64,000 nucleotides of DNA, from assembly GCF_007860185.1 (NCBI RefSeq), contig NZ_SJPY01000004.1:124001-188000 (forward strand). Reading direction: 5' to 3'. Each line of letters opens with the position of its first letter. Position 1 is the stretch's first letter. This DNA comes from Novipirellula aureliae. GTDB taxonomy: Bacteria > Planctomycetota > Planctomycetia > Pirellulales > Pirellulaceae. Under the pieces are notes generated by a model. It searched no databases and had not been told where the DNA came from. It worked only from the letters and a program-made list of their open reading frames with translations. Below are positions 21,094 to 41,700 of the stretch, in pieces. The translations under genes and the position numbers were made by a program.

Positions 21094-21762
21094 CTAGGTA
21101 CACGCCGCGTTGACTCGGCCAGTCTTTCTGCGTCGTAAAACCAGCGAAGACAATACCAGCATGGGAAACAGGCAACAAACCGATGGTTCCGGGACAGCAC
21201 TCGAAACCACTGTGATGGTTCCGGTGAAGTCGCCCGCCGCGAGTTGGCTTCCCCCACCAAAGTATCCAAAGATTGGGTTTTGACCCGTTAAACTATCGGT
21301 GTTGAGCGTGAGATCAATCGATTGGCCCGCCGTCAAACCAGAAGTGTCAACGGTGAACCGGAACAGCTCGCTTCCGTCCAGTGTGACGAAGTTCTCGTTG
21401 GTGGCAAAGAGTGTCCAATCGGCACCTACCAAGCCTGCCGTAGGTCCAGCCCCCAAACCTGCACCATCACCCAAGAATGGATCGAAAGCAGGACTCTGAC
21501 CGAAAACGCCCAACGTGTTATTCACGTTGGTGATGAAAGCCGGGACATTTCCAGCAAACGCTTCCATGGGATCATTGCCAACCGCAATGAATGTTGCAAA
21601 AGACGTGACCTGATCGCCACCATCGGCGAACACGATGACATCAGCACTCGTCGTCCCTTCCGTAATCTGAATGTCGGAAAGGGTAAGTACAGCTTCGGCA
21701 TTGGCGTCTTTGATGACAAACAACGCTACAATCATCGAGCAAGTTAGGATAAGAAACTTCAT
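21094..21762 (-). CDS. PEP-CTERM protein with ITEGTTS module (copy A)
   Basis: The start is ATG 21762, with GGAG six bases upstream; the TTG four codons earlier overlaps that site. A signal peptide (MKFLILTCSMIVALF, cut after ANA) is followed by one domain of about 170 residues. Landmarks are DIQITEGTTSADVIVFADGG, DQVTSFATFIAVG, SPAFDPFLGDG, GLVGADWTLFATNE, LDGSELFRFTVDTSGL, LTGQNPIFGYFGGGS and GDFTGTI. The sorting tail is VPEPS, a hydrophobic helix and LRRRKTGR. It is a clear paralogue of the gene at 26819 and of an internal domain of the giant protein just upstream. The domain is not one I can name. It lies 78 bases after the giant gene's stop and is probably co-transcribed with it. Confidence 0.9.
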   Translation of the reverse strand: MKFLILTCSMIVALFVIKDANAEAVLTLSDIQITEGTTSADVIVFADGGDQVTSFATFIAVGNDPMEAFAGNVPAFITNVNNTLGVFGQSPAFDPFLGDGAGLGAGPTAGLVGADWTLFATNENFVTLDGSELFRFTVDTSGLTAGQSIDLTLNTDSLTGQNPIFGYFGGGSQLAAGDFTGTITVVSSAVPEPSVCCLFPMLVLSSLVLRRRKTGRVNAACT

Positions 21763-21839
21763 ACGATTCTCCAAGGTTTTTGTTAATCAATTAAACATGA
21801 TTTAGGCGATGCACAAACACAGTGCTGCTTGTGACTGGT

Positions 21840-24800
21840 TTATCTGACATAGGTCATAGCTTCAAGCGAAAGATTCTCGATTCGACCGAACTTATCCCTT
21901 TCTTCATCGAGACCAAACAAAACATCTGCTAAAGATTCATTTACAAGATGATCGACAGCTTGGGGAGAAATCATCTTCAACGCACTGATAAAGTTTGTTG
22001 GATTTGCACGAGCGATATCGGAGTCGAGGGAATTCACAAAACGGTCCTTGTTGATGTCATAAACATCATCGACCAGAGCAGCGTTTAGGAAGTTCCTTGG
22101 ATTGGCGCGAATCGTATCCGCGTCCAACGCATTGACGAATGCACTGCCGGTGTCATTCAAAGAATCACCGACCGCGTTACCCCAATAGTGGGTGTCCGCC
22201 GCAGCGAGTCCAGTGTTGGCATTGTTGAGCACCGTGACTTGAAGCCATTCTTTTTCAATCGCGTTGTCGGCCCACTTAATGACAACTCGATCGGAACCAC
22301 CCTCACCGCCACCCACAATGTGAGTCACACTGGTGGGCGCCGTTGCTAGGGCCCACGTTGATGGGGTGTTGCTATTTCCGACTCGGAACTCAAAGTCGTT
22401 CACGGTCAAGGTGCCAGCCGGATTGTCGATATCCACCATGATGCCGTTAATGCCGCGGTTATATGCGGTATAGTTGTCACGCGTTGCGGTTTGCCCCTGT
22501 AGGAGAGCCGATTTTCCGGTGTCGATCGCAGCATCGTCATTTGGGCCATCGTTGTTGGCTCCGTTGCCGTCGAAGAACGACTTGTCGTAGAAAATGTGGC
22601 GACTGACGATTGCGGAAGAAGGAGCTACGACACTTATGTTTACATCAAAGTCGCCCGTTGCGGAGGTTGACCCGCCTCCAAAAAGACCAAACGTTGGCGG
22701 CTGGCCTGTGATCATTTCCGTATCGAGTGATGCCGAAATGGATTGCCCGGCATTCAAGCCGGATGTGTCAACCGTAAAGCGAAAAAGCTCGCTTCCATCG
22801 AGCGTTACATAGTTCGTCGCGGTCTCGAAAAGTGACCAACTAGGATCCACGGCGGTAGATGATGGCGTGGTTAGCGGATCGCCAAAAAAGATATATGGAT
22901 CAAAGGCTGATGATAAGCCAAAGACTCCACTTGAACTGTCAATTCCCGTCACCATCCAAGAGTCAGTACCACCAAACACTGGGCCGCCGTCCCCGGCCTG
23001 TACGAAGGTAACGAATGACGTAACTTGTTGGCCACCATCTGCATAAACTACGACATCGACCGACGTGGTGCCCTCCGTGATCACCACATCAGGTATGGAC
23101 AGAATCGCTTCGGAATCATTGTCAAGGATATTGGCGTAAACGTTAGCGAGTTGCACGTCTTGATAAAAAGGATCCGCAGTGGTTATTGAGAATGCGATCT
23201 GTCCGCTATGAAAACCCTCACTCAAAGAATCATCATATGCAAGTACGGTGACTTCGGTTGGAGTCAATGCATTTAGACCGTCGAATACGCGTTCAACTGC
23301 CACACCGACGCCATTTCCGAGATCCAATTGACTATTGGGAGTGATGGTGACAGTCACGACCGAACTAGGGATTGTATCCAACCCAACAGTGAAATGATCA
23401 ACCGTCCCACCTTCGGTGACATCGGTACTCCCTCCAGATTGAACGATCGAAATCCCCGCAATGTCGTTATCCGTTATGTTGACGATAATGTCATCGACGA
23501 CCAAGTTGTTAAAGCCAATGTCATTGCTGGTCGTTGAAACCGTAACGATGCCTCCATGAGTTGATTCTGCGACACCGTCATCGTTGGCGTTCACCGCGAT
23601 GCTGATTCCGGTCAGTGCGTTGATACTGCTAAATGTTTGTTGGACGGAGACACCGGGACCACTGCCTAGGTCAAGTTGACTATCCGGTGTAAGCGTCACG
23701 ACCACGTCGTCGCTAGGTTCGGTGTCAAAGGCGATCGTAAAATTGTCACCCATGCCACCTTCGCTCACATCGGTGCTGCCGCCCGATTCGGTCACGATCA
23801 AGTTGGCGACAACCACTGCGGGGGCGTTTCCTGGTGATCCAACGTCTGAGCTTGAAAACGGAAAACCGTTGGCTTGGACAGCATCGTCGCTACCAAACAC
23901 CGACCGCGCCCAATTTGTCCCAACATTGTTGTCTGCTCGGATGTCGGTTAAGAAGAGACTCGCTCCGTCGGGATCATCACTCGGCCAAGATCCCTCGTCA
24001 TCAAAGTTGACTTCGTCTTCTAAGAATCCGAATTGATTCTTGAGCTGCAACAACTCGTTGATTGGCGACGGATCGTTGTCCAAATCACTCCATTCGACCG
24101 GGATCACGAGGGCCGAAGCGGGGATGTTCCAGGTACTTCGAAAACCGGCCGGCGTGGTGATCGGTGTGTCGACGCCATCGAAGAGAATGGCGGTCTGGCC
24201 GGGCTGCAATAGCGTCGATGATGGGATCACCCCCCAGTCGCCGTCTTCATCCGACAATCTCCATCCGCTGATGTCTTGCGTGGCGGTTCCCGCATTGACA
24301 AGTTCGACCCACTCAGTCGAAAACGCACCCTCGCTGCCGGCCGGGTTGTACATGATCTCACTGATCACGATCGATGGCGGCGGCAGCGGTTCGTCGTCCA
24401 AAACGGTGACGCTGATGTCATCAATGGATAGCGATGCGTAGCTAGGATCGGAAGTGCTGATGGTATGTTCGACCAAGCCTGCATGGATACCTTCGGCAAA
24501 CAAATCGTCGAAGGCCGCGACCGTGATGATCTGCGGCGACATTGCACTGCCACCCGCGAAGGTCAATTGAATCGGCGCTCCCGGACCGCTCCCTAAATCC
24601 AAGTCATCACTCGGATCCATTGTGACGAGGACATCGTCGGTTGGGACCGATGTGAGTGCGATTGAATAGGAGTCCGTCGCTCCAGTTTCGGCAACTTCTA
24701 ACGCATCGCTATTCAAGATTGAAAGACCGATTGGCCTCGGCAGATTGTAGGCATTCGGCGTCGGCGTGGTCGCGACAAAGGATTGGGTTTTCCTAGCTAA

Positions 24801-26630
24801 ACCGCCGTCCGGTATCCGCGAGATCGACTGGGTGTTCTGGGCTCCGTTTTGGTTCTCGTTGATCTGAGGTGAACCGGGTAACAGCAGCGATAACAAACCT
24901 GCATCATCGGCATCGTCCGTGTCATAGACAACGGCATCGACTAGGTTGGCCGTTGTCACGGAAGCACCGATTGGAAACTGCGAGACATTTGCGTCGTAGA
25001 GTGCTACTGCATCCGCACCGTCAGACAATAAGCCGCTTGCGAACGTCAGATGGATGTTTGGCACTCCGGCATCCCCCATAACGAAGAAGCCGTTGGCATC
25101 CGTCGTGTAACCATCTAAATCAAGTGTCGAGTACACCGAGTCGGTCGCGCCATCGATGAGCACGAGAGTTTTGCCCGTCAAAGGCGTGTTGCCGATTCCT
25201 CCATCAAAAAGTTCAATGAACTCGCGGTTGTTGGTCGTTGCGGCATCCACTTCGTTTATCAGAATCGTTGGTGATTCGTTGTCCACAATGATGACATCAA
25301 CATTCTTGTTTGAAAGCGTGTTGTAGTTGGCATCCGAACTGTTGAACGAATGAGTGATACCGCGAGCCAGGTTACCGGTACTGACAAGATCATCGACTGC
25401 TTTGACCATCACCGTTTGTGGAAGGAAAGCGGTTTGTGGTGTGAACACCATTTGTGTTGCCACCCCGGGTCCTTGCCCTAGATCGATCTCGGCGGTTGGC
25501 GTGACGGTCACAGTGACGTCGTCGGCGGGGGTTGTGTTCAGCGCAACCGAGTAGGAGTCAAAGTAGCTGTTTTCTGCAACGATGGTGCTGCCATTGGACT
25601 CACTGATCGTAACACCGACCGGAACGGTTTGGAATTCGTAATCGACGACCACGGGGATGTGATCGCTGGCGTTTCGCAGTGCATCCAAGACGTTCGCTGC
25701 GGCACCGGTCCCGGTCAGTCCACCATTGAGACTATGGGTACCGTTATTACCAAAGGCACGGTAGGTGCCGGGGATGTAGTCGAGCCCACCCGAAACGAAT
25801 AACTCGCCACTGGCAAATTGCAAGTCAAAGCGATCGTCCATGCCCCCGAAACCGCTGCGAGGATCTTGAGTATGAATACTCTTGAAAGCGTTATTGTTAG
25901 TCCAATTGCCGGGCGAATTGATCGGGTCAAGCACCTGCCCCGCACCGCTGGCGGTCAAGTTGGTGTAGGCTCCTTCGAAACTGTTTTTCATATTGAAGTC
26001 GCCGACGATCAAGACGTTCTCGCCTTCTCCAAGCGCATCGGCGTTGGCTCGTAATTGACTTGCTTCTAACGCTCGCGTGCTTGAGTCACCGCCGCCGGAG
26101 TCGGCTTTCAAGTGGGTTGAATAGATATAGAAGTCAGCATCGTTGGCGGTCGCATCGAGCGGTTGGAAGTGTCCACGAAGCGGTGGCCGAGTGAACGAAC
26201 CCGAGACGTTTTGTGTGCCCAGTAATTGCAAGGTGGCCGTGTTGTAAACAAAGCCGTAACTCAGTCCCGAATAGCTGGGGGACAGGACGAAAGAGTAGTT
26301 GTCGGTATAGAGCGAATCAAGAATACTCTCAATCCGGTTGATCGACGTGTTATTGGTTTCCTGCAGAACCAACAAGTCGACGGGCTGTGTGATGCTGGCT
26401 TTGGTTTCGTTGCCAATCGCCTCCAAAATGGTACGAAAGTAAGCGTCCTCGCTGGCATTGTCAGGACCGTGCAAAACGTTGTAGCTGGCGACTCGCATCG
26501 CGGCGAGTAGTCGGCGGTCTTCGAGTGATTCAAACAGCGCGGCACGTCGGAAATCACGCGAAGATGTTTTCCGATTACGGCGACCTGTCGATCGGTCGGT
26601 GTTGAAGAATCTCTCAAGAATGGCAAACAT
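21840..26630 (-). CDS. Giant secreted multidomain protein A: EEP nuclease, lamin-tail and Calx-beta-like repeats, dockerin
   Basis: The product has 1596 residues. The N-terminus has no classical signal peptide but carries LFESLEDRRLLA (residues 32-43), the LEPR-XLL-like export motif of giant planctomycete proteins. Residues 45-332 are an EEP domain with intact active-site motifs (ASYNVLH, LQETN, STHLK, IVGDFNM, SDHIPVV). Then come Calx-beta-like repeats of about 110 residues (338-450, about 630-740, 920-1145), two lamin-tail domains (about 455-620 and 745-910, the second with VISEIMYNPAG) and one ITEGTTS module (about 1150-1310). The last 220 residues are an anchor-like domain and two dockerin-type repeats (DINKDRFVNSLD). 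An extracellular DNase held on a surface scaffold is the simplest reading. Cohesin partners are not visible here. Confidence 0.9.
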   Translation of the reverse strand: MFAILERFFNTDRSTGRRNRKTSSRDFRRAALFESLEDRRLLAAMRVASYNVLHGPDNASEDAYFRTILEAIGNETKASITQPVDLLVLQETNNTSINRIESILDSLYTDNYSFVLSPSYSGLSYGFVYNTATLQLLGTQNVSGSFTRPPLRGHFQPLDATANDADFYIYSTHLKADSGGGDSSTRALEASQLRANADALGEGENVLIVGDFNMKNSFEGAYTNLTASGAGQVLDPINSPGNWTNNNAFKSIHTQDPRSGFGGMDDRFDLQFASGELFVSGGLDYIPGTYRAFGNNGTHSLNGGLTGTGAAANVLDALRNASDHIPVVVDYEFQTVPVGVTISESNGSTIVAENSYFDSYSVALNTTPADDVTVTVTPTAEIDLGQGPGVATQMVFTPQTAFLPQTVMVKAVDDLVSTGNLARGITHSFNSSDANYNTLSNKNVDVIIVDNESPTILINEVDAATTNNREFIELFDGGIGNTPLTGKTLVLIDGATDSVYSTLDLDGYTTDANGFFVMGDAGVPNIHLTFASGLLSDGADAVALYDANVSQFPIGASVTTANLVDAVVYDTDDADDAGLLSLLLPGSPQINENQNGAQNTQSISRIPDGGLARKTQSFVATTPTPNAYNLPRPIGLSILNSDALEVAETGATDSYSIALTSVPTDDVLVTMDPSDDLDLGSGPGAPIQLTFAGGSAMSPQIITVAAFDDLFAEGIHAGLVEHTISTSDPSYASLSIDDISVTVLDDEPLPPPSIVISEIMYNPAGSEGAFSTEWVELVNAGTATQDISGWRLSDEDGDWGVIPSSTLLQPGQTAILFDGVDTPITTPAGFRSTWNIPASALVIPVEWSDLDNDPSPINELLQLKNQFGFLEDEVNFDDEGSWPSDDPDGASLFLTDIRADNNVGTNWARSVFGSDDAVQANGFPFSSSDVGSPGNAPAVVVANLIVTESGGSTDVSEGGMGDNFTIAFDTEPSDDVVVTLTPDSQLDLGSGPGVSVQQTFSSINALTGISIAVNANDDGVAESTHGGIVTVSTTSNDIGFNNLVVDDIIVNITDNDIAGISIVQSGGSTDVTEGGTVDHFTVGLDTIPSSVVTVTITPNSQLDLGNGVGVAVERVFDGLNALTPTEVTVLAYDDSLSEGFHSGQIAFSITTADPFYQDVQLANVYANILDNDSEAILSIPDVVITEGTTSVDVVVYADGGQQVTSFVTFVQAGDGGPVFGGTDSWMVTGIDSSSGVFGLSSAFDPYIFFGDPLTTPSSTAVDPSWSLFETATNYVTLDGSELFRFTVDTSGLNAGQSISASLDTEMITGQPPTFGLFGGGSTSATGDFDVNISVVAPSSAIVSRHIFYDKSFFDGNGANNDGPNDDAAIDTGKSALLQGQTATRDNYTAYNRGINGIMVDIDNPAGTLTVNDFEFRVGNSNTPSTWALATAPTSVTHIVGGGEGGSDRVVIKWADNAIEKEWLQVTVLNNANTGLAAADTHYWGNAVGDSLNDTGSAFVNALDADTIRANPRNFLNAALVDDVYDINKDRFVNSLDSDIARANPTNFISALKMISPQAVDHLVNESLADVLFGLDEERDKFGRIENLSLEAMTYVR
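22011..22603 (-). repeat. 593-bp repeat, copy in giant protein A
   Basis: This stretch encodes the C-terminal anchor/dockerin module of giant protein A and matches 27751-28343 base for base at an offset of 5740. By eye I count about eleven mismatches in 593 bases and no gap. Similarity falls sharply at the 28343 side and fades more slowly on the other. The two copies are in the same orientation. Confidence 0.9.
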
Positions 26631-26746
26631 GAAGGGCTCTAGGGAAAGTTCTACGTTGGGGGCTAACCGTTCGCCGCACCTCGGTCGTTATGTAGTGAAC
26701 GTGAGATGTGGCGGACGACTAGTACGAACGGTATTTTGAAAACTGG

Positions 26747-26786
26747 AAAACGCTCGCTGGGGGCGTGCCCCGCAGCGAGCCGTTTT
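26747..26786 (-). terminator. Bidirectional-looking terminator hairpin between PEP-CTERM copy B and giant A
   Basis: AAAACGCTCGCTGGGGGC, a short loop and GCCCCGCAGCGAGCCGTTTT form a long stem with two small bulges and A/U ends. It lies 33 bases after the stop of the gene at 26819 and 117 bases before the next start, so it probably ends the upstream transcript and gives the giant gene its own promoter. The U-run is short. Confidence 0.65.
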
Positions 26787-26818
26787 GATAATCAACATTG
26801 GGTCAAAGTCAGTGACGC

Positions 26819-27460
26819 TTAGGCGTTTCTGCGACGACGGCGAATGGCTGCACCACAACCAACCAATCCGAGCGACGCCAAACCAGCCAAGCTGGTTGGC
26901 GATGGGACGGGGGCCACGCTGATCGTTCCCGTAAAATCTCCGGTCGCCAAACTGGATCCACCTCCGAACAGGCCAAAAATCGGGTTTTGTCCGGTCAAGC
27001 TCTCTGTGTCAAGCGTAACATTGAGCGAGTCGCCAGCCATTAAACCAGAAGTATCAACGGTGAAACGAAACAGCTCGCTGCCGTTCAGTGTGACGGAGTT
27101 GGCATTGGTAGCAAATAGTGTCCAATCTGCACCTACCAAGCCTGCCGTAGGCCCAGCCGCTAAACCTCCACCATCACCCAAGAATGGGTCAAAAGCAGGG
27201 CTCTGACCGAAGATGCCTTGGCTGTTGTCCACATTGGTGATGAACGCATTGACGTTTCCGGCAAACGCTGCAGCCGGATCGTCACCAACCGCAATAAACG
27301 TTGCGAACGACGTAACTTGATCACCACCACTTCCGTATACGATCATATCGACGCTGGTAGTTCCTTCCGTGATGTTTACATCACCGACATTCAATACCGC
27401 GGCGTGTGCTGGAACGACCAACACCGCGAGGGCAATCGCGAAACTGTACACAAATCTCAT
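26819..27460 (-). CDS. PEP-CTERM protein with ITEGTTS module (copy B)
   Basis: The start is ATG 27460, with GGAG nine bases upstream. The signal peptide (MRFVYSFAIALAVLVVPAHA) is followed by the same domain as copy A: DVNITEGTTSVDMIVYGSGG, SPAFDPFLGDG, DWTLFATN, LNGSELFRFTVDTSGL, LTGQNPIFGLFGGGS and GDFTGTI. The tail is VPSPTSLAG, a hydrophobic helix and IRRRRRNA, with Ser in place of the Glu of VPEP. DNA identity with copy A is near 80% over the middle by eye. It follows giant gene B by about 110 bases, mirroring the order of giant A and copy A. Confidence 0.9.
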   Translation of the reverse strand: MRFVYSFAIALAVLVVPAHAAVLNVGDVNITEGTTSVDMIVYGSGGDQVTSFATFIAVGDDPAAAFAGNVNAFITNVDNSQGIFGQSPAFDPFLGDGGGLAAGPTAGLVGADWTLFATNANSVTLNGSELFRFTVDTSGLMAGDSLNVTLDTESLTGQNPIFGLFGGGSSLATGDFTGTISVAPVPSPTSLAGLASLGLVGCGAAIRRRRRNA

Positions 27461-27492
27461 TTCAACATTCTCCAAATACGCGTTCTAAGTTG

Positions 27493-27521
27493 ACGCCCAC
27501 CGGCGACGCGCCAGTGGGCGT
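27493..27521 (-). other. Strong stem-loop between giant B and PEP-CTERM copy B
   Basis: Read on the minus strand, ACGCCCACTGGCG, a CGT loop and CGCCGGTGGGCGT form a 13-base stem with one T-G wobble. It lies 46 bases after the giant gene's stop and 33 bases before the next start, just ahead of the ribosome site. There is no U-run after it. It could be an RNA-processing or stability element that sets the ratio of the two products. Confidence 0.6.
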
Positions 27522-27567
27522 AAAAACACTTCTTCTAACTTCTCCGAACTAAGACTTCCGAGAAGAT

Positions 27568-30500
27568 TTAAAACAAAAGGTCCGACGACGAATACTGTGC
27601 GAACAATGCGTCTGCAGCCGCTTCTGGCTCGTCTGTATCCTGAGCTTGATTGGCAATGAGATCGACGAGGCCCAAGAAGGACCCATTTGCCATTGCCGAA
27701 GGAGCACTAATCATTTTTAAGGCGCTGATGAAGTTCGTCGAATTTGCGCGAGCGATATCGGAGTCCAAGGAATTCACGAAACGGTCCTTATTGATGTCAT
27801 AAGCATCATCGACCAGAGCTGCGTTTAAGAAATTCCTTGGATTGGCGCGAATCGTATCCGCGTCCAACGCATTGACGAATGCACTGCCGGTGTCATTCAA
27901 AGAATCACCGACCGCGTTACCCCAATAGTGGATGTCCGCCGCAGCGAGTCCAGTGTTGGCATTGTTGAGCACCGTGACTTGAAGCCATTCTTTTTCAATC
28001 GCGTTGTCGGCCCACTTAATGACAACCCGATCGGAACCACCCTCACCGCCACCCACAATGTGAGTCACACTGGTCGGCGCCGTTGCTAGGGCCCACGTTG
28101 ATGGGGTGTTGCTATTTCCGACTCGGAACTCAAAGTCGTTCACGGTCAAGGTGCCAGCCGGATTGTCGATATCCACCATGATGCCGTTAATGCCGCGGTT
28201 ATATGCGGTATAGTTGTCACGCGTTGCGGTTTGCCCCTGTAGGAGAGCCGATTTTCCGGTGTCGATCGCAGCATCGTCATTTGGGCCATCGTTGTTGGCT
28301 CCGTTGCCGTCGAAGAACGACTTGTCGTAGAAAATGTGGCGACCTGCGATGGACGCGGAAACCGTTGCGTCATTCGTGGCACCGGGGGTCGGTGCTTGAA
28401 TGGCGAAGCCGCTGGCGATCAGGCCGTTGGGGACTCGTGAGACCGAATCCGCGTCACTGGTACCGTTTGCCGACTCATCGTACTGGACGGTTTCACCAAG
28501 GGCGGTAAGCAATGCGGCGTCGTCGGCGTCGTTGGTACCATAGACGACGGCATCACGCAGATTCGTGGTCGATGCCGGTGTCGCGGTTGCGAAGACGGTG
28601 TTGAACGCGGTGGCATCACCGGTATACAGGGCGACTGCGTCGGGACCATTCTGGACGCCGTTGGTGGTAAACTCGACCATATCAACATTCGGCACCGAAG
28701 CACTGCCGATCACGAAGTAGCCATCCGCAGGGATCACTTGACCATCGAGGTCGATCGCGTCGTAGGCACCATCGTTGCTGCCGTTGTAGAGCACCAAGAC
28801 CAAACCATCGAGCGACGTGCCCGCAGGACCATATAACTCGATAAACTCATCAGCATCCGTACCGACGGTATCGGAGTCGACTTCGTTGATCACGATGTCC
28901 GCGGTCGTGGCGTTGACACCCGTGCCACTGATTGCGAAGTCATAAGCACCCTCGTCAGCATCGTCGCTGGTGATGTTCACCATCGCGTTGCGAACGCCAG
29001 TGGCACTCGGATCAAAGTCAACTTCGAACGAGAAGTTGTCGCCTGGTGCGATTACGACCGGTCCGCTAAAGGCGGGATCGACGGCGAAGTCGCCTGCGTT
29101 AACTCCGGTGATACTGATAGCCGAGACCGTCAAGTCGGCGGTTCCATCGTTGGAAATAAAGTATCGCTCGGTCTCGGTACCGACGGCGACGTCGGAGACA
29201 CCGAACTGAGTACTATCAGCCACGTCTGGGGTCGTATCGCCATCAACGATCTCGATGAAGTTACTCTCGACAGTGATCTCTGGGACGAGTGCAGCTGTCG
29301 CAATGCCGGTAATCGCGAAATCGTAGGGATTCTCGTTCGAGTCGGTGTTGGCAATTTTAATCGTCGCCGCCTTCGTTCCCGCCGTAGTTGGATTGAAGGA
29401 GACATCGAAGCTAACCGAACCCCCGGAGGCGATTGTGACCGGTAAGCCGAGGCTACCGGTGATTGCGAAGTCGGCGGCGTCGACGCCCGTGATGCTGATC
29501 GCGGTCACGTCCAAAGATGCACTACCTTCGTTTTCAATCGTGAAGGTCTTAGTGATCGGCGAGCCAATTACGATGGCACCAAAGTCGGTACCGTCGGCGG
29601 TCGATGGAGTCGCATCGCCGTCAGCAATGTTTATTGTTGCACCGGTGAGATTGATTTCAGGCGAAGGAGCACTGTTAACCGCTCCAGGGGTACCGAAATC
29701 AGGCCCCGCACCAATGGTTGCCGAAGAAGCTTGCCAATTCAGAAAATCGTCGTTACCGACTTCGGGATCTACCGTAGCGAGTACCGATGGCAACAGCTCG
29801 AGCGAAGCTCCGGTGACATCGGGGAAGTCCGCGTCGGTGTACACCACGCGATCGATTTCGTTTCCGGCCGCATCCGTCAGGATCACTTCATCGTCACCAT
29901 TGGCAAGCTCGAAGCTCAATCCGTCGTATTGGTAGTCGACATTGACTCCGCCATTGGTCGCGAAGTCAGCGTTTCGACCGAGCACCAAATATCCGCCCGC
30001 GGGAACGTTTAACGATCCGCCGTTCGCAATCACGACGGAATCGCTTCCGTCATCGGAAAGGGTCCAGCCATTGATGTCGATCGTCGAAGCGGTGGTGTTA
30101 TAGACCTCGAAGTATTCACCATCGGCATCACCAACTGCATTTGGGTCTTTCATGATTTCGTTGACCACGATGTCGCCGACGTTGTAGCCGACTGCGACCT
30201 CGTTATCGAAAATGCTGATCGTGGCCGACGCACCGCTAATCGTCGCCGTACCCGACGTGACGCTATCAAGTGTGACGATCAAGTCTTCCGTACCTTCAAA
30301 GATCGCATCGTCGATCACGAACACATCAATGTCTGCTGAAGTGCTGTTCATCGGAATCGTCACACTGCCCGACAAAGCGGTGAAGTCACCGGGGGCTGCC
30401 GCGTCACCACTAACGGTATAGCTGATGATCGTGTCGGTTGCACTGACGCCCGACTGAGTCACGGTGAACCGACCGTTGACAGGACCCGTTTCGTTACCAT

Positions 30501-33500
30501 CGGCACCTGCAGCGATGCTAACCGAAGCCGCACCGGCAACAATCGGCGGAACGAACCCAGGTGAACCTTCGTCGGTGACGTCGTAATTCGGACCAGTCGG
30601 GTTGATCGAAACGGGGTCTTGAGCTGGCGACGCCTGCACATCCGACTGCGCCCAACTTGTGCCGACATTGTTGTCAGCAGAAAGGTCGGTCAAGTAAATA
30701 CTTGGACCACCTGGATCGGATGGCCAATCGCCACTGTCGGCAAAGTCGACTACGTCAATCTCGTTGCCGCCGACACCATCTAGAAGTTGCAAGACTTCAT
30801 TGCCAATCGCAGGGCCGTTCGCAAGACTACCCCACGGCACGGCGATGACCTGAGCGGATGCGGGAACACCCCATTCGCTTCGGAAGACAGAGCTTGTAAA
30901 TGCGTCACTGTGAACGACGGCGACTTGCCCAGCACTTAGCGTCGTGCCAAGAGGGATCTCGCCCCAGTTATAGGAGTCTTCGTCATCAAACACCCACCCG
31001 CCAATGTTGACGGAGGTCGTCCCCGTATTGACGATTTCGATCCATTCGCCTTCACCAACGTTTTCAATGGTGTTTGGGTTGTACATGATTTCGCTAATCA
31101 CGATGCTTGGCGTTCCGCCGCCAACTTCGTTGTCAGTGATCGCGACGCTCAAATCACCAGCCGTTGTTCCGATTGGGTAATTGGCATCGGTTGACGCGGT
31201 AACTTCGAAGGAAATCAGTCCGGTGTGAGGCCCTTCGTTAGCCGCATCATCCACGGCGTCGATGTTGACCGAAATCGGAGTCGCCGAGGCGTTGAAGACG
31301 ACGTTGGTGGCAACACCAGCACCGTTGCCGAGATCAAGCTGCGCATCCGGTGTGACCGTGACGGTGACAACTCCGGTTGGTGTTGCACCAGCGAGCGAAA
31401 TCAAGATCGAATCACTAGCACCTCCTTCGGCTACTGACGTGCCAGCTCCGGTGGCCGTTACCAAAATTCCGCAAGTGACCGTGTTGGCTGCGTCCGGTGT
31501 GTTGATCGCCGTGCCTGGGTTGGCTGGTAGCGAACCTTGGAACGGGTAGCCAGGAAGTCCGAAGCCTTCGAAGTCGTTTCGAATCCACTCCGATGCCGAG
31601 GTCGTTGCAGTGATGGCATCGGGAATACGCGAAGCACCACTGACACCGAATGTGTCTCCATCGTTAAGTGTCGTGGAAGACAACTGAACCAGACCGAAAG
31701 TGTCGCTAACGTTTTCCGCTGTCGACACCGAATCGCGGACGCTGGCCCAAGGAGCGACCGTGTAGGTGGCTCCCGCGGGAACCGGAACCTGATCAAAATC
31801 GAAGACGCCGTCATCATCGAAATCCAAGTCCGCCGCAACGGAGCCGCTAAAACCTTCTGCCAAGATGATGCTCATGCCATCATACAAAGTGTCAACGAAG
31901 ACGGACGTCGCAAAGCCGCTGGCATTAGCAGTTGTCAAAGCCCCCGTGTCGACAATCTCGCCGGTAGATCCGTCGACCGCGACGATCGTCAGCGAACTAA
32001 GGTTGGCCGAAGGAGTCGAACGGACTTCGACAAAGTCGTACGAGTCCCCTCCTCGATGATTCAAGACAAACTCGTTCAAGAATGTCGCAGGTGCGGCAGT
32101 GTCATTGTCCGCAATATTGGCTGTCACCGATCCGGACAAATTGTTGTAGTCGCCATCGCTGCTGGCCGTTGAGATCGTGATCAAACCGGTGTGAATCGCC
32201 GCTTCAACCGCTACGTCGTCGACCGCGTTGACCGTGACCGTTTGCGGGGCCTTGTCGGTGAAGTTTAAGATGACGGCAACACCCGCACCATTACCAAGGT
32301 CGATCTGGCTGTCAGGCGTTACCGTGACCGTAACGGGTGAAGTTGGATTGGTATTGAAGCCGATCAAAAAGGAATCCGATGAACCCGATTCCGTCACGTC
32401 GGTGGATCCGTCCGTTTGGGTAATCGCCATTCCCGGCGTGCCAGCAACGGCCGCGTTGGGTGCCAAGGGGGTGTTGATCGCATTGCCTGCAACGGTTGTA
32501 AACGTGTCCCCAAAGCTATCAAGCCCATCGCCTGCAAAGTCATTTCTCAGCCAATCCGCTGACGAATTGGTATCGATGCCGTTTGGAATTCGCGACGCAC
32601 CACCGGGATGGAACGTGCTTCCATCGCTCAGCGTTGCAGCCGAAAGCACCGTCGTCGAATACGCTGAGTTGCCGGCATCGCCGTTACTCAATGCGACATC
32701 GTCCAGCAGAGCAGACCAGGGGGTGGTATCCAATGTACCGTCGTCGTCGGTGTCAAGGTCGTCACCGACATTGCCGGTGAACCCTTGGACCAACAAGATC
32801 GATTGATCGGCACCGTTGGTAAACGTGTCCTGTGCCTGAATCCCACCACCGGCGTACTGCAAGCCGTTCGAGTCGGCAGTTCCGAGCGAGAGGGCGTGCT
32901 TGATAACGCCCTCCGTTCCTGAGCCGTCGAGTACGAGCACCGTATAAGCTGACATATCCGCCGATGGAGTGCTCAGGATTTCGATGTACTCGTCGGTGTC
33001 CGTGCTGGTGTGACTGAAGACAAATTCGTTAATCACCGCGGGAATCACGGGTGTATCGTCATCTTGAATCGTACCCGATGCCGATGCCGTTCCAATGATC
33101 GCATTCACAGGACCCGTTAGATCGACGGTGAAGTCTTCGTTTGATTCGGCCAGCGTATCACCAACCACATTCACCGTGACGGTCTTCGTGGCCTCCCCAG
33201 CCAAGAACGACTCAGTGCCTGTCAAAGCCCCCGTGAAGTCCGCCGCGTCGGTGTCGATGTTGTTCACGGTCCAAGTGACGTCCGATGCCCCCGAGGTATC
33301 GCCGCTGCGAGTGATATCAAACGTAAACTGCGTGGCCGGGGCAGTGCCCGAGTCGCCTTCGGGCTTAACGGTATCCGTCGCTGCTATACCAAGAATCGCT
33401 CCACCGCCTGTCGCGTCCCCAGATACGACCATCTGGTCCATCGCAATATCTTCGTCACCGGAGTCGAGCTGAAAGGTGACTCGAATGTCAAGGGTATTAC

Positions 33501-34107
33501 CCAGCCCGGGAATGGGAGCGGTGAAGTTTGCAAAGGTGTCTGTCAGCGCGGTTGAATCTCCCGTGCCGTCGAAATCTGTGTCAAGCAAAGCTTCAGAGTT
33601 GTATGTTGAACCATCGTTCTCGAACCAGATCAAGGGCTCATAGTTGCCGCCGTCAATGGAGTAATCGAAGTGAACGAAATCGGAATTGTCCCAGTCTTGA
33701 TTTGCTCCGTCGGCATCCTCGGCCAAATCAACCGAAAAACTCAAGTTAGTCTGGCCTGAAATGTTGACCTGGTCCATGTTCAACGTTGCAGGAAGGCTAC
33801 CGTCCGCATCGATGTCCATGGCAGTGAAATACCCAGTGCCTGTTTGCCCGGTGACGTTGTAGTAACTCCCAATGGAATTTGTAGGGATTTGCGTAAAGAA
33901 GTCGCCGCCGCCGTCTGAGAATTCGGCCTGGTTGGTACTATACCCATCACCCTGAGTTTCGAAGTCGACCGACCCCAGTACGGCCATCAGTCGTCGGCCT
34001 TCCAAGTTCTCCAACATCACCTTGCGATTGTTCCGCACCGCAATGCTGCGACGGCGTTTCTTGTTCTTTTTCTTCTGAGACGTGAAGATTGAATCTAGTA
34101 GTTTCAT
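27568..34107 (-). CDS. Giant secreted multidomain protein B: Calx-beta, lamin-tail, choice-of-anchor D, dockerin
   Basis: I place the start at ATG 34107 (GGAG six bases upstream), giving 2179 residues; an open frame extends 27 codons further upstream. The N-terminus is very basic (QKKKNKKRRRS) and then has MLENLEGRRLMA, the LEPR-XLL-like motif. Domains in order are a choice-of-anchor-like beta domain, a Calx-beta domain (about 255-375), and alternating lamin-tail-like (FVFSHTSTDTDEYIEI, VISEIMYNPN, IVVNEIMKDPNA) and Calx-beta-like repeats. Next are two choice-of-anchor D domains (GTDFGAIVIGSPITKTFTIE and STQFGVSDV), a last lamin-tail domain (VINEVDSDT), then the anchor/dockerin module shared with giant A. 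No enzyme motif is evident, so it is probably a structural or adhesive surface protein. Confidence 0.9.
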   Translation of the reverse strand: MKLLDSIFTSQKKKNKKRRRSIAVRNNRKVMLENLEGRRLMAVLGSVDFETQGDGYSTNQAEFSDGGGDFFTQIPTNSIGSYYNVTGQTGTGYFTAMDIDADGSLPATLNMDQVNISGQTNLSFSVDLAEDADGANQDWDNSDFVHFDYSIDGGNYEPLIWFENDGSTYNSEALLDTDFDGTGDSTALTDTFANFTAPIPGLGNTLDIRVTFQLDSGDEDIAMDQMVVSGDATGGGAILGIAATDTVKPEGDSGTAPATQFTFDITRSGDTSGASDVTWTVNNIDTDAADFTGALTGTESFLAGEATKTVTVNVVGDTLAESNEDFTVDLTGPVNAIIGTASASGTIQDDDTPVIPAVINEFVFSHTSTDTDEYIEILSTPSADMSAYTVLVLDGSGTEGVIKHALSLGTADSNGLQYAGGGIQAQDTFTNGADQSILLVQGFTGNVGDDLDTDDDGTLDTTPWSALLDDVALSNGDAGNSAYSTTVLSAATLSDGSTFHPGGASRIPNGIDTNSSADWLRNDFAGDGLDSFGDTFTTVAGNAINTPLAPNAAVAGTPGMAITQTDGSTDVTESGSSDSFLIGFNTNPTSPVTVTVTPDSQIDLGNGAGVAVILNFTDKAPQTVTVNAVDDVAVEAAIHTGLITISTASSDGDYNNLSGSVTANIADNDTAAPATFLNEFVLNHRGGDSYDFVEVRSTPSANLSSLTIVAVDGSTGEIVDTGALTTANASGFATSVFVDTLYDGMSIILAEGFSGSVAADLDFDDDGVFDFDQVPVPAGATYTVAPWASVRDSVSTAENVSDTFGLVQLSSTTLNDGDTFGVSGASRIPDAITATTSASEWIRNDFEGFGLPGYPFQGSLPANPGTAINTPDAANTVTCGILVTATGAGTSVAEGGASDSILISLAGATPTGVVTVTVTPDAQLDLGNGAGVATNVVFNASATPISVNIDAVDDAANEGPHTGLISFEVTASTDANYPIGTTAGDLSVAITDNEVGGGTPSIVISEIMYNPNTIENVGEGEWIEIVNTGTTSVNIGGWVFDDEDSYNWGEIPLGTTLSAGQVAVVHSDAFTSSVFRSEWGVPASAQVIAVPWGSLANGPAIGNEVLQLLDGVGGNEIDVVDFADSGDWPSDPGGPSIYLTDLSADNNVGTSWAQSDVQASPAQDPVSINPTGPNYDVTDEGSPGFVPPIVAGAASVSIAAGADGNETGPVNGRFTVTQSGVSATDTIISYTVSGDAAAPGDFTALSGSVTIPMNSTSADIDVFVIDDAIFEGTEDLIVTLDSVTSGTATISGASATISIFDNEVAVGYNVGDIVVNEIMKDPNAVGDADGEYFEVYNTTASTIDINGWTLSDDGSDSVVIANGGSLNVPAGGYLVLGRNADFATNGGVNVDYQYDGLSFELANGDDEVILTDAAGNEIDRVVYTDADFPDVTGASLELLPSVLATVDPEVGNDDFLNWQASSATIGAGPDFGTPGAVNSAPSPEINLTGATINIADGDATPSTADGTDFGAIVIGSPITKTFTIENEGSASLDVTAISITGVDAADFAITGSLGLPVTIASGGSVSFDVSFNPTTAGTKAATIKIANTDSNENPYDFAITGIATAALVPEITVESNFIEIVDGDTTPDVADSTQFGVSDVAVGTETERYFISNDGTADLTVSAISITGVNAGDFAVDPAFSGPVVIAPGDNFSFEVDFDPSATGVRNAMVNITSDDADEGAYDFAISGTGVNATTADIVINEVDSDTVGTDADEFIELYGPAGTSLDGLVLVLYNGSNDGAYDAIDLDGQVIPADGYFVIGSASVPNVDMVEFTTNGVQNGPDAVALYTGDATAFNTVFATATPASTTNLRDAVVYGTNDADDAALLTALGETVQYDESANGTSDADSVSRVPNGLIASGFAIQAPTPGATNDATVSASIAGRHIFYDKSFFDGNGANNDGPNDDAAIDTGKSALLQGQTATRDNYTAYNRGINGIMVDIDNPAGTLTVNDFEFRVGNSNTPSTWALATAPTSVTHIVGGGEGGSDRVVIKWADNAIEKEWLQVTVLNNANTGLAAADIHYWGNAVGDSLNDTGSAFVNALDADTIRANPRNFLNAALVDDAYDINKDRFVNSLDSDIARANSTNFISALKMISAPSAMANGSFLGLVDLIANQAQDTDEPEAAADALFAQYSSSDLLF
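27751..28343 (-). repeat. 593-bp repeat, copy in giant protein B
   Basis: This is the partner of 22011-22603 and encodes the segment from HIFYDKSFFDGNGANNDG to the second dockerin motif. The junction is abrupt in the codons just before the first H, where the two proteins have unrelated sequence. After the dockerin the two tails differ: giant B continues with about 40 extra residues, giant A with about 50. Confidence 0.9.
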
Positions 34108-34612
34108 GCTGGCTCCGAAAGGAAAATGGAGAGTGATTGTTCGAATTTGAACGGGCGACGAATTCGGATCGTTGACTTTTTCGATCACGTGTTAGTTGGT
34201 CGCAATCATACGGATTCTGCGACGATGTCCAGCCAAGTTCTAGAGATATTCATGAACTTAACACTTTCTTATTCTTTGTCCCAAAACACCGCGAAAGACA
34301 GCAACAATTCCTTCGCCAAAAGCAACGATGTCTTAACTAAAACTTCAAAAAGGTGTCGCCAGATTGGAACGTCCAGATGGGAGCGATGAGAATCGAACAC
34401 CTGGAAGTGACAGGCGATCAACGCAGATGGGTGAACACAGCCGCTTAAATGGGGCCATACACCTAGTCGCAGTATCGGCATCTGCGAAGAAGTTGTTGGT
34501 TAGGCATTGAATTACTGTGGGCTGCGTCTATAACGGTACTAACGCAACCGACGCGCGATGCTCAACTTATTGCGACAAAGAGATTTGACTGCCGAGTCTA
34601 TATGCCAAACCA
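34108..34612. other. Divergent intergenic region
   Basis: These 505 bases separate the divergent giant gene B and the small monooxygenase-like gene and must contain both promoters. Only short, unlikely frames occur. No repeat, hairpin with U-run or RNA gene was recognised. Confidence 0.4.
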
Positions 34613-35529: not shown

Positions 35530-36816
35530 TTAGAAACGTCGCGGATTGCCGCCACCTTCTAGTACGTTGCCCGATAGACGTGTGGCCGTTTCTGCACCCA
35601 AAATGCTGAATCCGAGAATGCGTTCAAGTGGGGCTATCAACTTGGCCAGATTGTTATCGAACGCGACCAGTGAGTCTTGTTGAATGTACAGCCGATCGCC
35701 TGGCATCATTTGGTAATTCGTGGTCGTCGCTGCCAATGAGGTTAATTCGTTCCAATCAATCGGAAGCACCTGATATTCGTTCGATTTTGGAGATGGCCGA
35801 GCAATCCACATGCGATGGCTAGAGCCCGGCGGAATACCTTGGATCAAAGACAATGCATCGAGGACCGTTTCCCCACCGGTAACCGGAAAACGGAATACAG
35901 CATCACCGATGCCAGGACCTTGTGTGATCACATAAAACAGCTTGCTGTTGTAGGCCAGGACACTGGTCGCTACACGCGGCTCATCGAGAACCATCGACAA
36001 CTTTTGTTCGATTGCAAAACTAGCTTCTTCCAACGTCAATCCGACGACCGGAACGGTGCCGTAGATCCCAAGCGAAATGTGTCCGTCCGGTCCAACAAGG
36101 TGCTCGCCGACCACTTGTTGTAACGAACTGGCTTGGAGCAAGTTGATTGTAATGTTTGGTTCGTCGAAATGCTTTTGGAAACACTCCATCAGAATCTTCT
36201 TTGCATCCTCAAGCGTGAGACCGTCGAGGTTGACGCTACCATAGGGCGGGCCGAAGTCGACCGTGCCGTCAATTTCAAGAGCAAACTCACCGTCGACTGG
36301 GACGCCTGCTTCCGCAATCGCCACGATCGCATTCGATGCAACCAGTTGCTTCTCAAGTTGGCTTTCAATGGCTTTCTGAGCCTCGTCAAGGCGAAGCCCC
36401 GATAGTCGAACCGAGCCGTAGGGATTTCCAAGGCTAATCGATCCATCCGATTGGATAATGAAGTTGCCGTCGAGTGAGGCGACAGCCGGAGCGCCAGGCA
36501 CTCGCAGCGCCAGCATATCACCCGGGGCCAAGCGATCGATGCTATCGCGTCGAACCCGAATCCGCAATACATCCGTCGTGTTCAATCGATAATCCGATCG
36601 CGGTACGAGACGAACGACCTCGATATCCAAAATGTCCGGTGGCTCGATCTGATACATTGGCAAGGTCGCCTTGCACAGTTCGCGAGGTGCCGAATCGGGG
36701 CGAATGGTTGGGACCGTTTCTTTGACACCAAGACGCGACTTCGAACGAAGTGCGCCGCAACCACCTAGGCAGGTTACGAGCATGGCGATGGTAAACAATT
36801 GAATCCGTTGGATCAT
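35530..36816 (-). CDS. Polysaccharide export outer-membrane lipoprotein (Wza/Poly_export type)
   Basis: The start is ATG 36816, which places a lipobox (LGGC, Cys20) after a short signal peptide; the longer frame adds 33 unlikely residues. The 428-residue protein has polysaccharide export features: YQIEPPDILDIEVVRL and TDVLRIRVRRDS near the N-terminus. Three tandem modules share the pattern xDGxxxxGxPYGSVxLxGLxLxEA, at about residues 122-150, 182-210 and 242-270. SLBB-like segments and a C-terminal MMPGDRLYIQQDS follow. It should form or line the outer-membrane channel for the polysaccharide made by the genes at 46-63 kb. A tyrosine-kinase or Wzc-like partner is not in this window. Confidence 0.9.
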   Translation of the reverse strand: MIQRIQLFTIAMLVTCLGGCGALRSKSRLGVKETVPTIRPDSAPRELCKATLPMYQIEPPDILDIEVVRLVPRSDYRLNTTDVLRIRVRRDSIDRLAPGDMLALRVPGAPAVASLDGNFIIQSDGSISLGNPYGSVRLSGLRLDEAQKAIESQLEKQLVASNAIVAIAEAGVPVDGEFALEIDGTVDFGPPYGSVNLDGLTLEDAKKILMECFQKHFDEPNITINLLQASSLQQVVGEHLVGPDGHISLGIYGTVPVVGLTLEEASFAIEQKLSMVLDEPRVATSVLAYNSKLFYVITQGPGIGDAVFRFPVTGGETVLDALSLIQGIPPGSSHRMWIARPSPKSNEYQVLPIDWNELTSLAATTTNYQMMPGDRLYIQQDSLVAFDNNLAKLIAPLERILGFSILGAETATRLSGNVLEGGGNPRRF

Positions 36817-37102
36817 TAACTTCTGTCTCCCCCAGGCGCCGCGAGTCTCAGGACTTGCAGTCACAGTCGGATCATGAAACCGTCCGTTATTCTTGAGCAA
36901 CCTTGAGGCAGGCAAAATCGGACCTACTGGAAGAATCGGAATATTCGATCCCGCATATAGAATCCATCTTGTCGAGGCCGCAAAGTCTTCCTAAGCCGAG
37001 CGAAACATGGGTTTTTGTTAAGAATGTGTGGCCGATCTTCATGAAACCTTCATCTTCAAGATCGCTACCGGCTTTGATTTGGTCGGCTTTTAAACAAAGC
37101 AG

Positions 37103-37124
37103 CAAAAAAAAGGGTGCCACCCGC
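37103..37124 (-). terminator. Weak terminator after the TPR gene
   Basis: On the minus strand GCGGGTGGCACCC is followed at once by seven T. The stem is only GGGT/ACCC with a three-base loop, so it is weak. It lies 18 bases after the stop of the TPR gene. The rest of the 325-base gap (36817-37141) holds no gene I can support. Confidence 0.4.
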
Positions 37125-37141
37125 AGCCGTCTAGCTTCCAT

Positions 37142-40100
37142 TCACAACGCCGCTTCGAGTTCTATCTGCCATTGCTGATCTCGACGCCCCAGGTTTTGCA
37201 CCTGCAAATGATTCGACAGTGCAAGTTGGTAGTCTTCGATTGCCTTGGCCTTTTCGCCGACTCGTAGATAAGCAATGGCTCGGTGCAATAGGTAGACAGG
37301 ATCGTTTGTCCCTAAAACGCGAGTGGCCTCCTTCATTAGTTCAAGGGCTTTCGTGGCGTTGCCTCGTGACAATTCAATCACGGCGCGAGTATCAAGGACG
37401 GCCGGGTTTCGCCCTGCAATGGCCAAACTTCGGTTTGAAAATTCGACGGCTTCCAGCAAACTCGCATCGTCTTCGCTGAGCGAGACGGCCAAGTTGTTAA
37501 GGGCTACCAAATTGTTTGGCTCTCGGCTCAAAATAGCCCGATAGGTATCACGGGCCTTCTGGTGGTCGCCCTGCGCTGTTCGGGTGGACGCTTTTACCAT
37601 TTCGAGTTGCGAGGAATTGCCGTACGAAGCGATCCAGTCGCCTACCTTTTTCTCTACCCTTTCCAATTGCCTTTTCTCAAGCTGGCTCGAGCGAACGAGT
37701 TGATCAAGGATTGGAACCGCTAGGTTTAACTCGTCCTCTTGTATCGTCGTTTCTTCTAACAAGTCGATGATTGAATCGGGATCCTCACCGCGTTCCATCA
37801 GAACTCGAGCCAGATCAAAGCGACGTTCTCGGTCCTGCTGCGATGCTTCGCGAAGCGTTTGTTCGACGACGGACAAATACGCTTCGTTTTCATTGTCGGA
37901 TACCAATGACGCGACCGATTCCATCCAACGGGTCAATGGGACCACGTTCTTGGCGTCGACGCTTTCGGATTGGTCTCTCATCAAGCGAACCGCCATTTCA
38001 TGATCGCCATTTCTCGCAAGCCACTCGACACGTAGGCGGGCCGCGATCTGCTCAGCACCTTCCATCTCCTCCAACCGATCTAGCCACAATTTCGCATCGG
38101 GCAATTCGTTGCGTTCGGCTTGCCAAGCGATGTATTGACCGATGTAGCGAGCACGGTTTAACGGGTCGGTACTCAGCGCAATGGCACTGCGAATCTCTTT
38201 GGATGCCTCGAGCCAATTGCCTGTGTCGACTAGCAATCGTGCAAGCTGAAAATGATCCTCTGGGAAAACCCCTTCGCGCTTTGCTACAAGCGAACGCCAA
38301 CTCGAAATCGCCTGCGATCGACCTGACGATTTAAGTTGCGAGCTTAAAATCATGGCTCGGGTTCGCAAGTCGGGTACGCTTTCAGGATTGGCGGCCAAAT
38401 TCAAATTCACCAATTTGATCGCATCGTCCGTACTCTTTTCCCCGCCGCTACCCGATTTCATCAGTGCCAACTGTCGGCGAGACCATTGCAAGGTGTCGTT
38501 GCTGACCGAGCTGAGTTCCATCAGCCTTTGCAGCATTGCTTCAGCGTCATCGTGCTGATTTTGTCTCAGGAAGAATTCAGCTGCCGCCCGTAGCATGGTT
38601 TCATCGTTGGGCGGTTCAGCCACTGCGTTCTCCAGAACATTCTTTGCTCGATCCGAGTTCCCGATCAGCTCGTGCATTCGAGCCATCGCCAGCGGATTCG
38701 ATTTCGATAGCGGCGATTGTTGAAGCTCGTCAACAAGTCGCACAGCATCCTCTTTACGTTCCTCTTCGACAAGTAACGCAACGAGACTTAGACAGGGCTG
38801 GGGCTCAGCGGGAGACAACTCGACCGCCTGCCGAAACGCAGCTTCCGCTTCACCTCGCAGTGCGGAACGCTGCAACCCGAACTCCTCACGGTTGCTGCAA
38901 CGAGCCGCCAATTGACCAAGCCACAGAATGTCACGATAATCGGATGAAACGTTTGCGGTCTGACGGGCTATCATTAACGCCCGGACGTAATCGTTTCGGT
39001 TGGCGGAAACCATCGACGCGGTTCGACCGAGCCCGTCCATTCGCGAAAGATTTGCATCGTCGATCAAATGAATCAATTCATCGGCACGATCGTAGTCACC
39101 CGTCCGATGTAACAGGACGATGGAGTTGCGAAGTGTCGTCGCCGATCGATCCCCTCGTTCGATTGCTTTCGTGAGCGATTCGATCGCAGCTTTGGGGTCG
39201 TCTTGGCGAAGCGCGATATCCGCTTTCATCAACAACGGTGCCGGCGACCTCGGCATCTGCTTTTCTGCATCCGCTAAATGTTGAAGTGCCTTGTCATAGT
39301 TTGGCTGATTCGACTTCGTTTGAAGATCAATCTGCTGCTTGGATTCCGCCAGATGCCAGAGGCCCGTTTCACCTTGAGCCGATTTCAGTTGCCCAAGTGT
39401 CTCGGACAGCAATTGTGAGTCATTCGTGGCGTTGGCAATTTGCAGCCCTACGGTCCAGACATCCTCATTCTTCAACCCCGACTCGACTAGTTCGTGAAAC
39501 AACTGTTTGCTTAGCGGCATCAAATTGATATTGAGTGCTAGCCTCGTTACGTGCAGTTTTAATTCTTGCTGCTGCTGGGCTGACAAGACGGAGGCATCGG
39601 CGAGCAGTTCGGTAAGTGGCTTCGTCGCTTGGTCACGGTATCGAGACGCCAGCAAAGTAGCCCGAAACGTCATAATCAGTAAATCGTCTGGACAATCCTG
39701 TTCAGCCCGATGGAGTATTTCTTCTGCCTGCTGCCAATCCTGTTTTTCGATAGCGATCTTGCAAGCTGCAATTGAAAGTGTTCGCATCGCTGTATCGAAA
39801 TTCCCGCTATCATCGCTTTCTCGATTGGACATGCTCGATACTGTTTCACTGAGGAAGCTCTCGGCTTTCTCGATCTGCCCCTGTGCGCGATAGATCTCGG
39901 CACGTAGAAGAGCGATCTCAACACTCGTCGGGTTCGCTGTCTCAGCCCGCTCGACAAATTGAACCGCTGTCACCCAGTCTCGTTCCTTGTTTGGTAAACG
40001 GTAGTTCTGCTCAACACAGCGACGAGCCAATAATGTCCACCCTTCGGCTGGTGCCGATGGTAGACGCATCAATTCTTGTAATTCCTTGTAAGCATCGTCC

Positions 40101-41440: not shown

Positions 41441-41700
41441 TTTTGTAACTCGACGATCGCTGCGGTACAATTTCTGCAGAAATGGCGCACAGGCAAACCG
41501 GTGGATGGATACCCTCAAGCGGAGAATCTAGTCGAGGGAACGAGCCGCGATGGGACGCTGCTTTGACACTCGCAGCCGCGACGAGAGAAAGCGTAACAAA
41601 GACGCTTGAAGATAAGAGTATGATTTCTTTAAGAAATCATTTGGTTCGTCGGTGTCTGAGCGGCTAGCCAAATCGACAGCCGTACGTGTACCGCAAAAAC

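Follow-up and report, generated by a model that had tools for sequence, protein, structure and literature searches.

Adaptor scaffoldins of Ruminococcus combine a cohesin and a dockerin in one protein. Monovalent forms such as ScaC have been named (PMC11557425), and a hypothetical cohesin/dockerin system, the "planctosome," has been proposed for the freshwater planctomycete lineage Nemodlikiaceae (PMC6461901). In dockerin loops, according to another account (PMC6780208), calcium is assigned to positions 1, 3, 5, 9, and 12 and recognition to positions 10 and 11, and like repeats are read as a sign of dual binding. Here, we analyzed 64,000 nucleotides of Novipirellula aureliae (contig NZ_SJPY01000004.1, positions 124,001 to 188,000; referred to as the window), in which two very large ("giant") genes are each followed by a small PEP-CTERM-like gene. 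The domain of the small proteins, the "ITEGTTS" domain, is designated DOM, and the C-terminal module shared by the giants is designated MOD. The small protein is likely an exosortase-sorted, cohesin-like surface receptor for docking giants, forming with them a cohesin/dockerin-like display system, and the giant/small gene pair, which recurs in planctomycetes, probably fastens the giants to the cell surface.

Two giant/small gene pairs in N. aureliae

The original prediction of two units, each with a giant gene and a small PEP-CTERM-like gene, agrees in coordinates and strand with the open reading frame (ORF) list of the 64-kb window, where all four ORFs lie on the minus strand at the positions given beforehand (Table 1). 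The in-frame ATG of giant A at 34107 is the edge of the region first described (21094 to 34107). From the stop of the giant to the first start of the small gene, there are 65 bp in pair B and 92 bp in pair A.

The small genes, thought to be ~80% alike in DNA, have a measured identity of 76.5% over 460 bp (67% protein identity). The giants have one block of 635 bp in common (96.85% DNA identity), which coincides with MOD, and outside it all DNA matches between them are of ≤61 bp, bearing out the expectation of a near-identical C-terminal module in otherwise different proteins. Both small proteins carry DOM, as first described, but a third copy had been overlooked; it lies inside giant B, directly before MOD, and has 55% protein identity to small protein A. 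No DOM was identified in giant A by profile. The proposed tandem duplication of a cassette holds for the small genes and the modules, which are paralogous, but not for the bodies of the giants; since these differ, a simple tandem copy of one cassette does not describe the locus, and duplication of the whole cassette was discarded as the principal explanation. Gene conversion may have caused the likeness between the two MODs. Local paralogy alone, with recent gene conversion keeping the modules alike and the small genes as a by-product without shared function, would fit the coincidence of the near-identical block with MOD in giants that are unlike elsewhere and accompanied by small genes of lower identity. 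However, the same pairing is found in other families and in Phycisphaerae, and we consider this account extremely unlikely.

Table 1. Features of the giant/small gene pairs and of the adjoining exopolysaccharide locus (window coordinates)
Feature	Coordinates	Strand	Description	Basis
Small gene B	21094..21774	-	226 aa; signal peptide, DOM (cohesin-like), VPEP-type C-terminal tail	Signal peptide and tail by eye
DOM of small B	21199..21708	-		Profile that includes window copies
Giant B	21840..26630	-	1596 aa; Planctomycete extracellular motif, EEP-type nuclease/phosphatase domain, lamin-tail domains, DOM, MOD	
MOD of giant B	21957..22616	-	Beta domain and dockerin-like double repeat	
Second loop of giant B, DINKDRFVNSLD	22023..22058	-	Fits calcium pattern 1, 3, 5, 9, 12	
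First loop of giant B	22122..22169	-	Longer, partly canonical	
Third DOM, within giant B immediately ahead of MOD	22620..23117	-		Independent single-sequence match (E, 2.2e-9) and profile
Exo_endo_phos (EEP) domain of giant B	25659..26489	-	Residues 48-324; LQET, GDFN, SDH motifs	E, 2.7e-9
Small gene A	26819..27475	-	218 aa; signal peptide, DOM, VPSP-type C-terminal tail	
DOM of small A	26909..27415	-		Profile
Giant A	27568..34188	-	2206 aa from GTG; lamin-tail, Calx-beta, choice-of-anchor D domains, MOD	
MOD of giant A	27697..28356	-		Sequence comparison and profile
Second loop of giant A, DINKDRFVNSLD	27763..27798	-		
Exopolysaccharide locus	35530..64000	-	Export protein, glycosyltransferases, sugar transferase, EpsI-like gene at window edge	

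A predicted cohesin-like domain in the small proteins

With DOM alone as the query, only three places in the 7.27-Mb host genome were found at E ≤ 0.01, namely, small genes A and B and giant B; the full small protein, tail included, gave one weak host match elsewhere (E, 0.0057; residues 143 to 211). Used against other genomes, the window DOM had one bridging match (G126; E, 4e-4) among 296 genomes of the order, no convincing relative in 241 genomes of the family, and no relatives among the plasmids, genome_contigs, and viral_contigs collections. Weak order and family matches (L014 to L018 and L021) were set aside as chance, those on the minus strand being judged from the opposite strand. In its literal ITEGTTS form, the family was thus observed in the host genome alone. 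The bridging sequence, itself used as a single-sequence query, recovered the DOM of giant B independently (Table 1), and a profile united all three window copies with a family present in at least 33 of 396 order genomes (E ≤ 1e-5). A scan of named genomes for DOM yielded 19 loci, including four labeled Phycisphaerae or Phycisphaerales and one metagenome-assembled genome labeled Verrucomicrobiota. By these sequence comparisons, the window copies are divergent members of the DOM family.

None of the 25 DOM members compared with Pfam and NCBIfam had a convincing match, a Pfam scan identified no cohesin above the cut-off in the host genome, and the DOM profile gave a single insignificant match to PDB sequences (E, 0.59). 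An AlphaFold model of the DOM-MOD region of a homologue (locus L133; 35 aligned sequences) had a predicted local distance difference test score (pLDDT) of 87.5 and a predicted template modeling score of 0.79, and its ten best PDB matches were all cohesins (template modeling scores of 0.56 to 0.68 by target length). Lower ranks were occupied by further beta sandwiches, including NCX1 and antibody fragments, and a viral structure library gave chiefly loose beta-sandwich matches. When the DOM profile was compared with 21 planctomycete Pfam cohesins (21 of the 27 loci read with a Pfam Cohesin match; L167 was left out for a frame problem), it scored 26.3 over 105 columns, versus 16.0 for the reversed control and a maximum of 12.5 for column shuffles, none of which reached 26.3 in 200 trials. 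The beta part of MOD scored 12.2 against the same cohesins and was equalled by 7 of 200 shuffles, which places the cohesin likeness in DOM. The HHalign probability for DOM against the cohesin set was low (27%). As judged from the homologue model and the profiles, DOM is cohesin-like, and the label goes no further because the fold was found on a homologue and the Pfam cohesin model was not matched. Alternatively, DOM could be a carbohydrate- or matrix-binding beta sandwich that merely resembles a cohesin, with the small proteins acting as matrix components. The NCX1 and antibody fragment matches and the exopolysaccharide locus that adjoins the genes are consistent with such a role, but with cohesins as the ten best structure matches and a profile likeness beating 200 shuffles, we find it very unlikely.

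The C-terminal module of the giants

In MOD (~210 residues), a beta domain is combined with two dockerin-like repeats. At E ≤ 1, the MOD profile matched 19 PDB sequences, whose names are those of cellulosomal or dockerin proteins and the best of which was CipA (2b59; E, 2.4e-4); entries 2b59, 3kcp, and 4wi0 are presumably X-dockerin structures. Pfam Dockerin_1 (PF00404) matched 15 of 27 MOD family members at E ≤ 1 (best, 7.8e-7) and scored 54.5 bits on the MOD giant of locus L114. The window module reached 13.7 bits, below the curated cut-off of 22.9; the dockerin label originally given to the giants therefore has the support of the family profile but not that of the Pfam cut-off.

A duplicated calcium loop/helix motif is present, with two loops in the MOD alignment, and in the window MODs the second loop fits the calcium pattern. 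For comparison between the loops, 52 of 64 MOD stretches were kept (ungapped loop windows, exact repeats removed) and reduced to 40 representatives under 62% identity. Positions 10 and 11 were alike in both loops of one protein at 0.525, versus 0.139 after shuffling (0 of 20,000). The excess was largest at position 10 and extended to positions 7, 9, 11, 13, 14, 16, 17, and 18 but not to positions 6, 15, and 19. In these aligned repeats, MOD has the matching recognition residues by which a dual-mode dockerin is recognized. The residues at positions 10 and 11 differ between lineages. In the host, MOD is also present in two further proteins (L118:17861-18520, C10; L119:5031-5672, C4), which have IN and VF at these positions compared with AL/SL in the window MODs, and because of these different residues the two proteins may belong to other partners. 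MOD also lies within open frames of 11,328 and 12,660 codons (G140:C2:1072624-1073259 and G513:C896:788-1420, respectively), and thus the module occurs on huge proteins too.

Linkage of DOM and MOD across genomes

DOM loci were collected by DOM homology alone, and adjacency was read from stop-to-stop ORFs; 10 named loci judged to be duplicate contigs of G loci were excluded, as were stretches fetched through MOD. The best 9, 10, or 15 candidates per genome were scored, depending on the search, and the DOM and MOD counts obtained there are lower bounds. Altogether, 63 DOM ORFs were found, of which 43 had a resolvable neighborhood and 20 ended too near the edge of a contig or stretch. MOD was located in the same or an adjacent ORF for 34 of the 43. 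With DOM defined by the profile, the two gene types are thus linked at most resolvable DOM ORFs rather than apart, separate occurrence in most related genomes having been set beforehand as the refuting outcome. Among the 63, 7 contain MOD themselves, and a further 26 have a MOD ORF no more than 600 bp away; 24 of these 26 are on the same strand, where by coordinates the giant precedes the small gene in 19 cases and follows it in 5. One DOM ORF is a second small gene behind a giant/small pair.

MOD is present in 31 of the 33 DOM-positive order genomes. In a set of 197 genomes that are at least 90% complete, MOD was found in 16 of 17 DOM genomes versus 12 of 180 others, DOM in G013, G030, G052, and G126 being taken from another, order-wide DOM search. 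The proportion becomes 16 of 18 if G324 is included (P = 3e-14) and 12 of 13 with the matches of one search alone (P = 7e-11), and since the genomes are related, these are not P values of independent events.

The arrangement varies: (i) MOD, DOM, and the PEP-CTERM tail are fused in one frame in G202 and G222, which belong to the same family but to different genera; (ii) the giants of L127 and L133, like giant B, have DOM and MOD in one chain; (iii) G031 has a small gene flanked by two giants, all three with DOM; and (iv) in G400, which belongs to the host's genus, the small gene comes before the giant and another MOD follows ~5 kb further. MOD stretches far outnumber DOM matches in G513 (56 versus at least 6) and G062 (32 versus at least 4), a ratio to be expected of a small number of receptors shared by many dockerin proteins. 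In a Mantel test, run once on 23 of the 33 linked ORFs after close relatives and second copies had been excluded and with shared phylogeny included in the distances, DOM distances tracked those of the dockerin part of MOD (r = 0.33, 37 of 5,000 permutations; partial r = 0.30, 84 of 5,000) but not those of its beta part (r = 0.17, 755 of 5,000).

Payloads of the giants

Giant B combines a nuclease/phosphatase-type domain with lamin-tail domains, and giant A has lamin-tail, choice-of-anchor D, and Calx-beta domains. The LQET, GDFN, and SDH motifs in giant B are presumably catalytic. A domain scan of the window proteins identified no glycoside hydrolase domain on the giant/small pairs. Nine MOD giants scanned elsewhere contained, as single cases, a subtilase, an M12B peptidase with a P-domain, a C-type lectin with cadherin-like repeats, and carbohydrate-binding domains, as well as laminin-G domains (three giants) and FG-GAP repeats (two giants). 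Varied payloads beside a constant DOM/MOD pair fit an anchoring role. At 12675-16226, there are a phosphatase/ExeM-like nuclease gene and, 1 kb further along, a gene whose lamin-tail product ends in a PEP-CTERM-like tail; together with the nuclease domain of giant B, this hints at extracellular nucleic acid use.

Putative sorting tail, exosortase, and exopolysaccharide locus

By eye, the small proteins have a signal peptide and a tail composed of a VPxP motif (VPSP in A and VPEP in B), a hydrophobic stretch, and a basic end. An exosortase (TIGR02602; 142 bits versus a cut-off of 105.55) is encoded at L120:5340-6326, ~2.3 kb past the window end and ~32 kb from giant A. Just downstream of small gene B is a gene for a further PEP-CTERM protein (20078-20797; 21.4 bits versus 16), which has no DOM, and the exopolysaccharide locus includes a gene for a 1458-aa TPR protein (37142-41518).

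Proposed mechanism and alternatives

The fold of DOM on a homologue, the fold of MOD, and the pairing and fusion of the two domains are computed results, from which we infer binding, calcium dependence, sorting, and display. Giant and small protein would both be exported, and the MOD of the giant would dock in a Ca2+-dependent manner on the cohesin-like DOM of the small protein. The exosortase would anchor the small protein at the cell surface or in the exopolysaccharide matrix, where giants with varied payloads would thereby be displayed. Giant B carries DOM and MOD side by side, i.e., a socket beside a plug, and so might also bind a further giant, which would give short chains. The results support the suggestion of a joint action of the two products, for example as a scaffold and its partner, and sharpen it to a cohesin-like domain with a sorting tail facing a dockerin-like module, which would bind each other.

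Several points weigh against the display system. Pfam Cohesin (PF00963) was matched by none of the 25 DOM members at E ≤ 1. The confident model is that of a homologue, the AlphaFold model of the window small protein itself having a pLDDT of 40 (3 sequences), and the structure search output came without the aligned range of the DOM-MOD model, so that the likeness was assigned to DOM via the profile comparison. The first loop of MOD is longer and noncanonical, with calcium positions that are partly fitted. The NCBIfam PEP-CTERM model scored 14.8 bits on small protein A (cut-off, 16) and had no match to small protein B at E ≤ 0.1. In addition, 9 of the 43 resolvable DOM ORFs have no MOD nearby although the sequence extends 2 kb or more on either side, G324 and G515 have DOM without MOD, and 12 of 28 MOD genomes are without a DOM call. 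The neighbors of MOD in 11 of those 12 were inspected by eye, obvious nongenes being ignored, and PEP-CTERM tails at relatives' loci were flagged by a loose pattern. A small PEP-CTERM gene stands beside the MOD giant with weak DOM likeness in G133, G208, and G524 and with no clear DOM in G231, G152, and G125; in the other five, no such gene was seen beside MOD, partly at contig ends. Small PEP-CTERM genes without a clear DOM that adjoin MOD giants (L146:7305-7955, L150:5013-5615, and L156:6370-8046) may be further-diverged partners or other proteins.

The unlinked DOM ORFs would also suit operon companions without direct contact, i.e., co-exported proteins that both reside in the exopolysaccharide matrix, with DOM recognizing a different ligand and the dockerin-like module a different partner. 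Pairing alone indicates joint use, not binding, and the host genome (G000) has 31 Pfam Dockerin_1 stretches over the cut-off, elsewhere or of other type. However, a cohesin-like fold beside a dockerin-like module, the fusions, the matched loops, and the fact that DOM goes with the dockerin part of MOD and not with its beta part argue for contact, and we regard mere companionship as unlikely.

Beyond the cohesin-like receptor itself, we see an even chance of a wider role, in which DOM would be an unrecognized cohesin family spread in Planctomycetota, providing receptors for part of the phylum's orphan dockerins and an exosortase-sorted station for dozens of giants, with dual-module giants polymerizing on the surface. 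Recognized cohesin is uncommon, being over the Pfam cut-off in 29 of 246 phylum genomes, while some planctomycetes have many dockerins, such as the host with its 31 stretches over the cut-off and no recognized cohesin. A neighbor-encoded, cohesin-like partner with a sorting tail makes the question of binding testable in vitro. If true, the display system would join the cohesin-dockerin and PEP-CTERM/exosortase systems, a link not found in text searches, and account for the retention of very large proteins at the planctomycete surface. The pairs themselves, as new orthogonal cohesin-dockerin combinations, would also be useful tools.

Comparison with known systems

The original statement that no described system has this pairing fits our text searches of a literature library, in which no paper joining PEP-CTERM and dockerin was found; a review of noncellulosomal cohesins (Peer et al.) may list planctomycete cases. 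Exosortase and cohesin were mentioned together, in the text available, only in work on methanotrophic archaea. Nevertheless, cohesin-dockerin surface anchoring is known as such, and the planctosome is in print (PMC6461901).

In cellulosome anchoring (CipA type II X-dockerin with cohesin-bearing SLH anchoring scaffoldins), the dockerin follows a beta domain at the C terminus of the large protein, as in MOD, and the partner consists of a cohesin domain and a surface-anchoring part, as the small protein would. In contrast, DOM matches no Pfam cohesin model, the tail is PEP-CTERM-like rather than SLH or LPXTG, the cargo would consist of varied giants, and no multicohesin scaffoldin was seen. The host is also unlike a cellulosome producer in having one DOM per window ORF and no Pfam cohesin over the cut-off in the genome; cellulases were searched for on the window pair only.

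The planctosome (PMC6461901) resembles the present system in its planctomycete origin, its cohesin and dockerin modules, and the lamin-tail domains in large proteins, and its M12B peptidase occurs here too, on a MOD giant. There, the anchoring role falls to a lamin-tail protein whose cohesin is detected by existing models, whereas here a small exosortase-type protein, a new cohesin-like domain, another order, and a conserved gene pair are involved. The PEP-CTERM/exosortase system (PMC1569441) has in common with this locus the signal peptide, the C-terminal tail, and the exosortase and EpsI beside an exopolysaccharide locus; the receptor role for dockerin proteins that is proposed here is not part of that system in the portion of the source available. 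Finally, giant B and the giants of L127 and L133 resemble the Ruminococcus adaptor scaffoldins in having socket and plug in one chain, but differ from them in that the adaptor part forms the tail of a giant that has a payload of its own.

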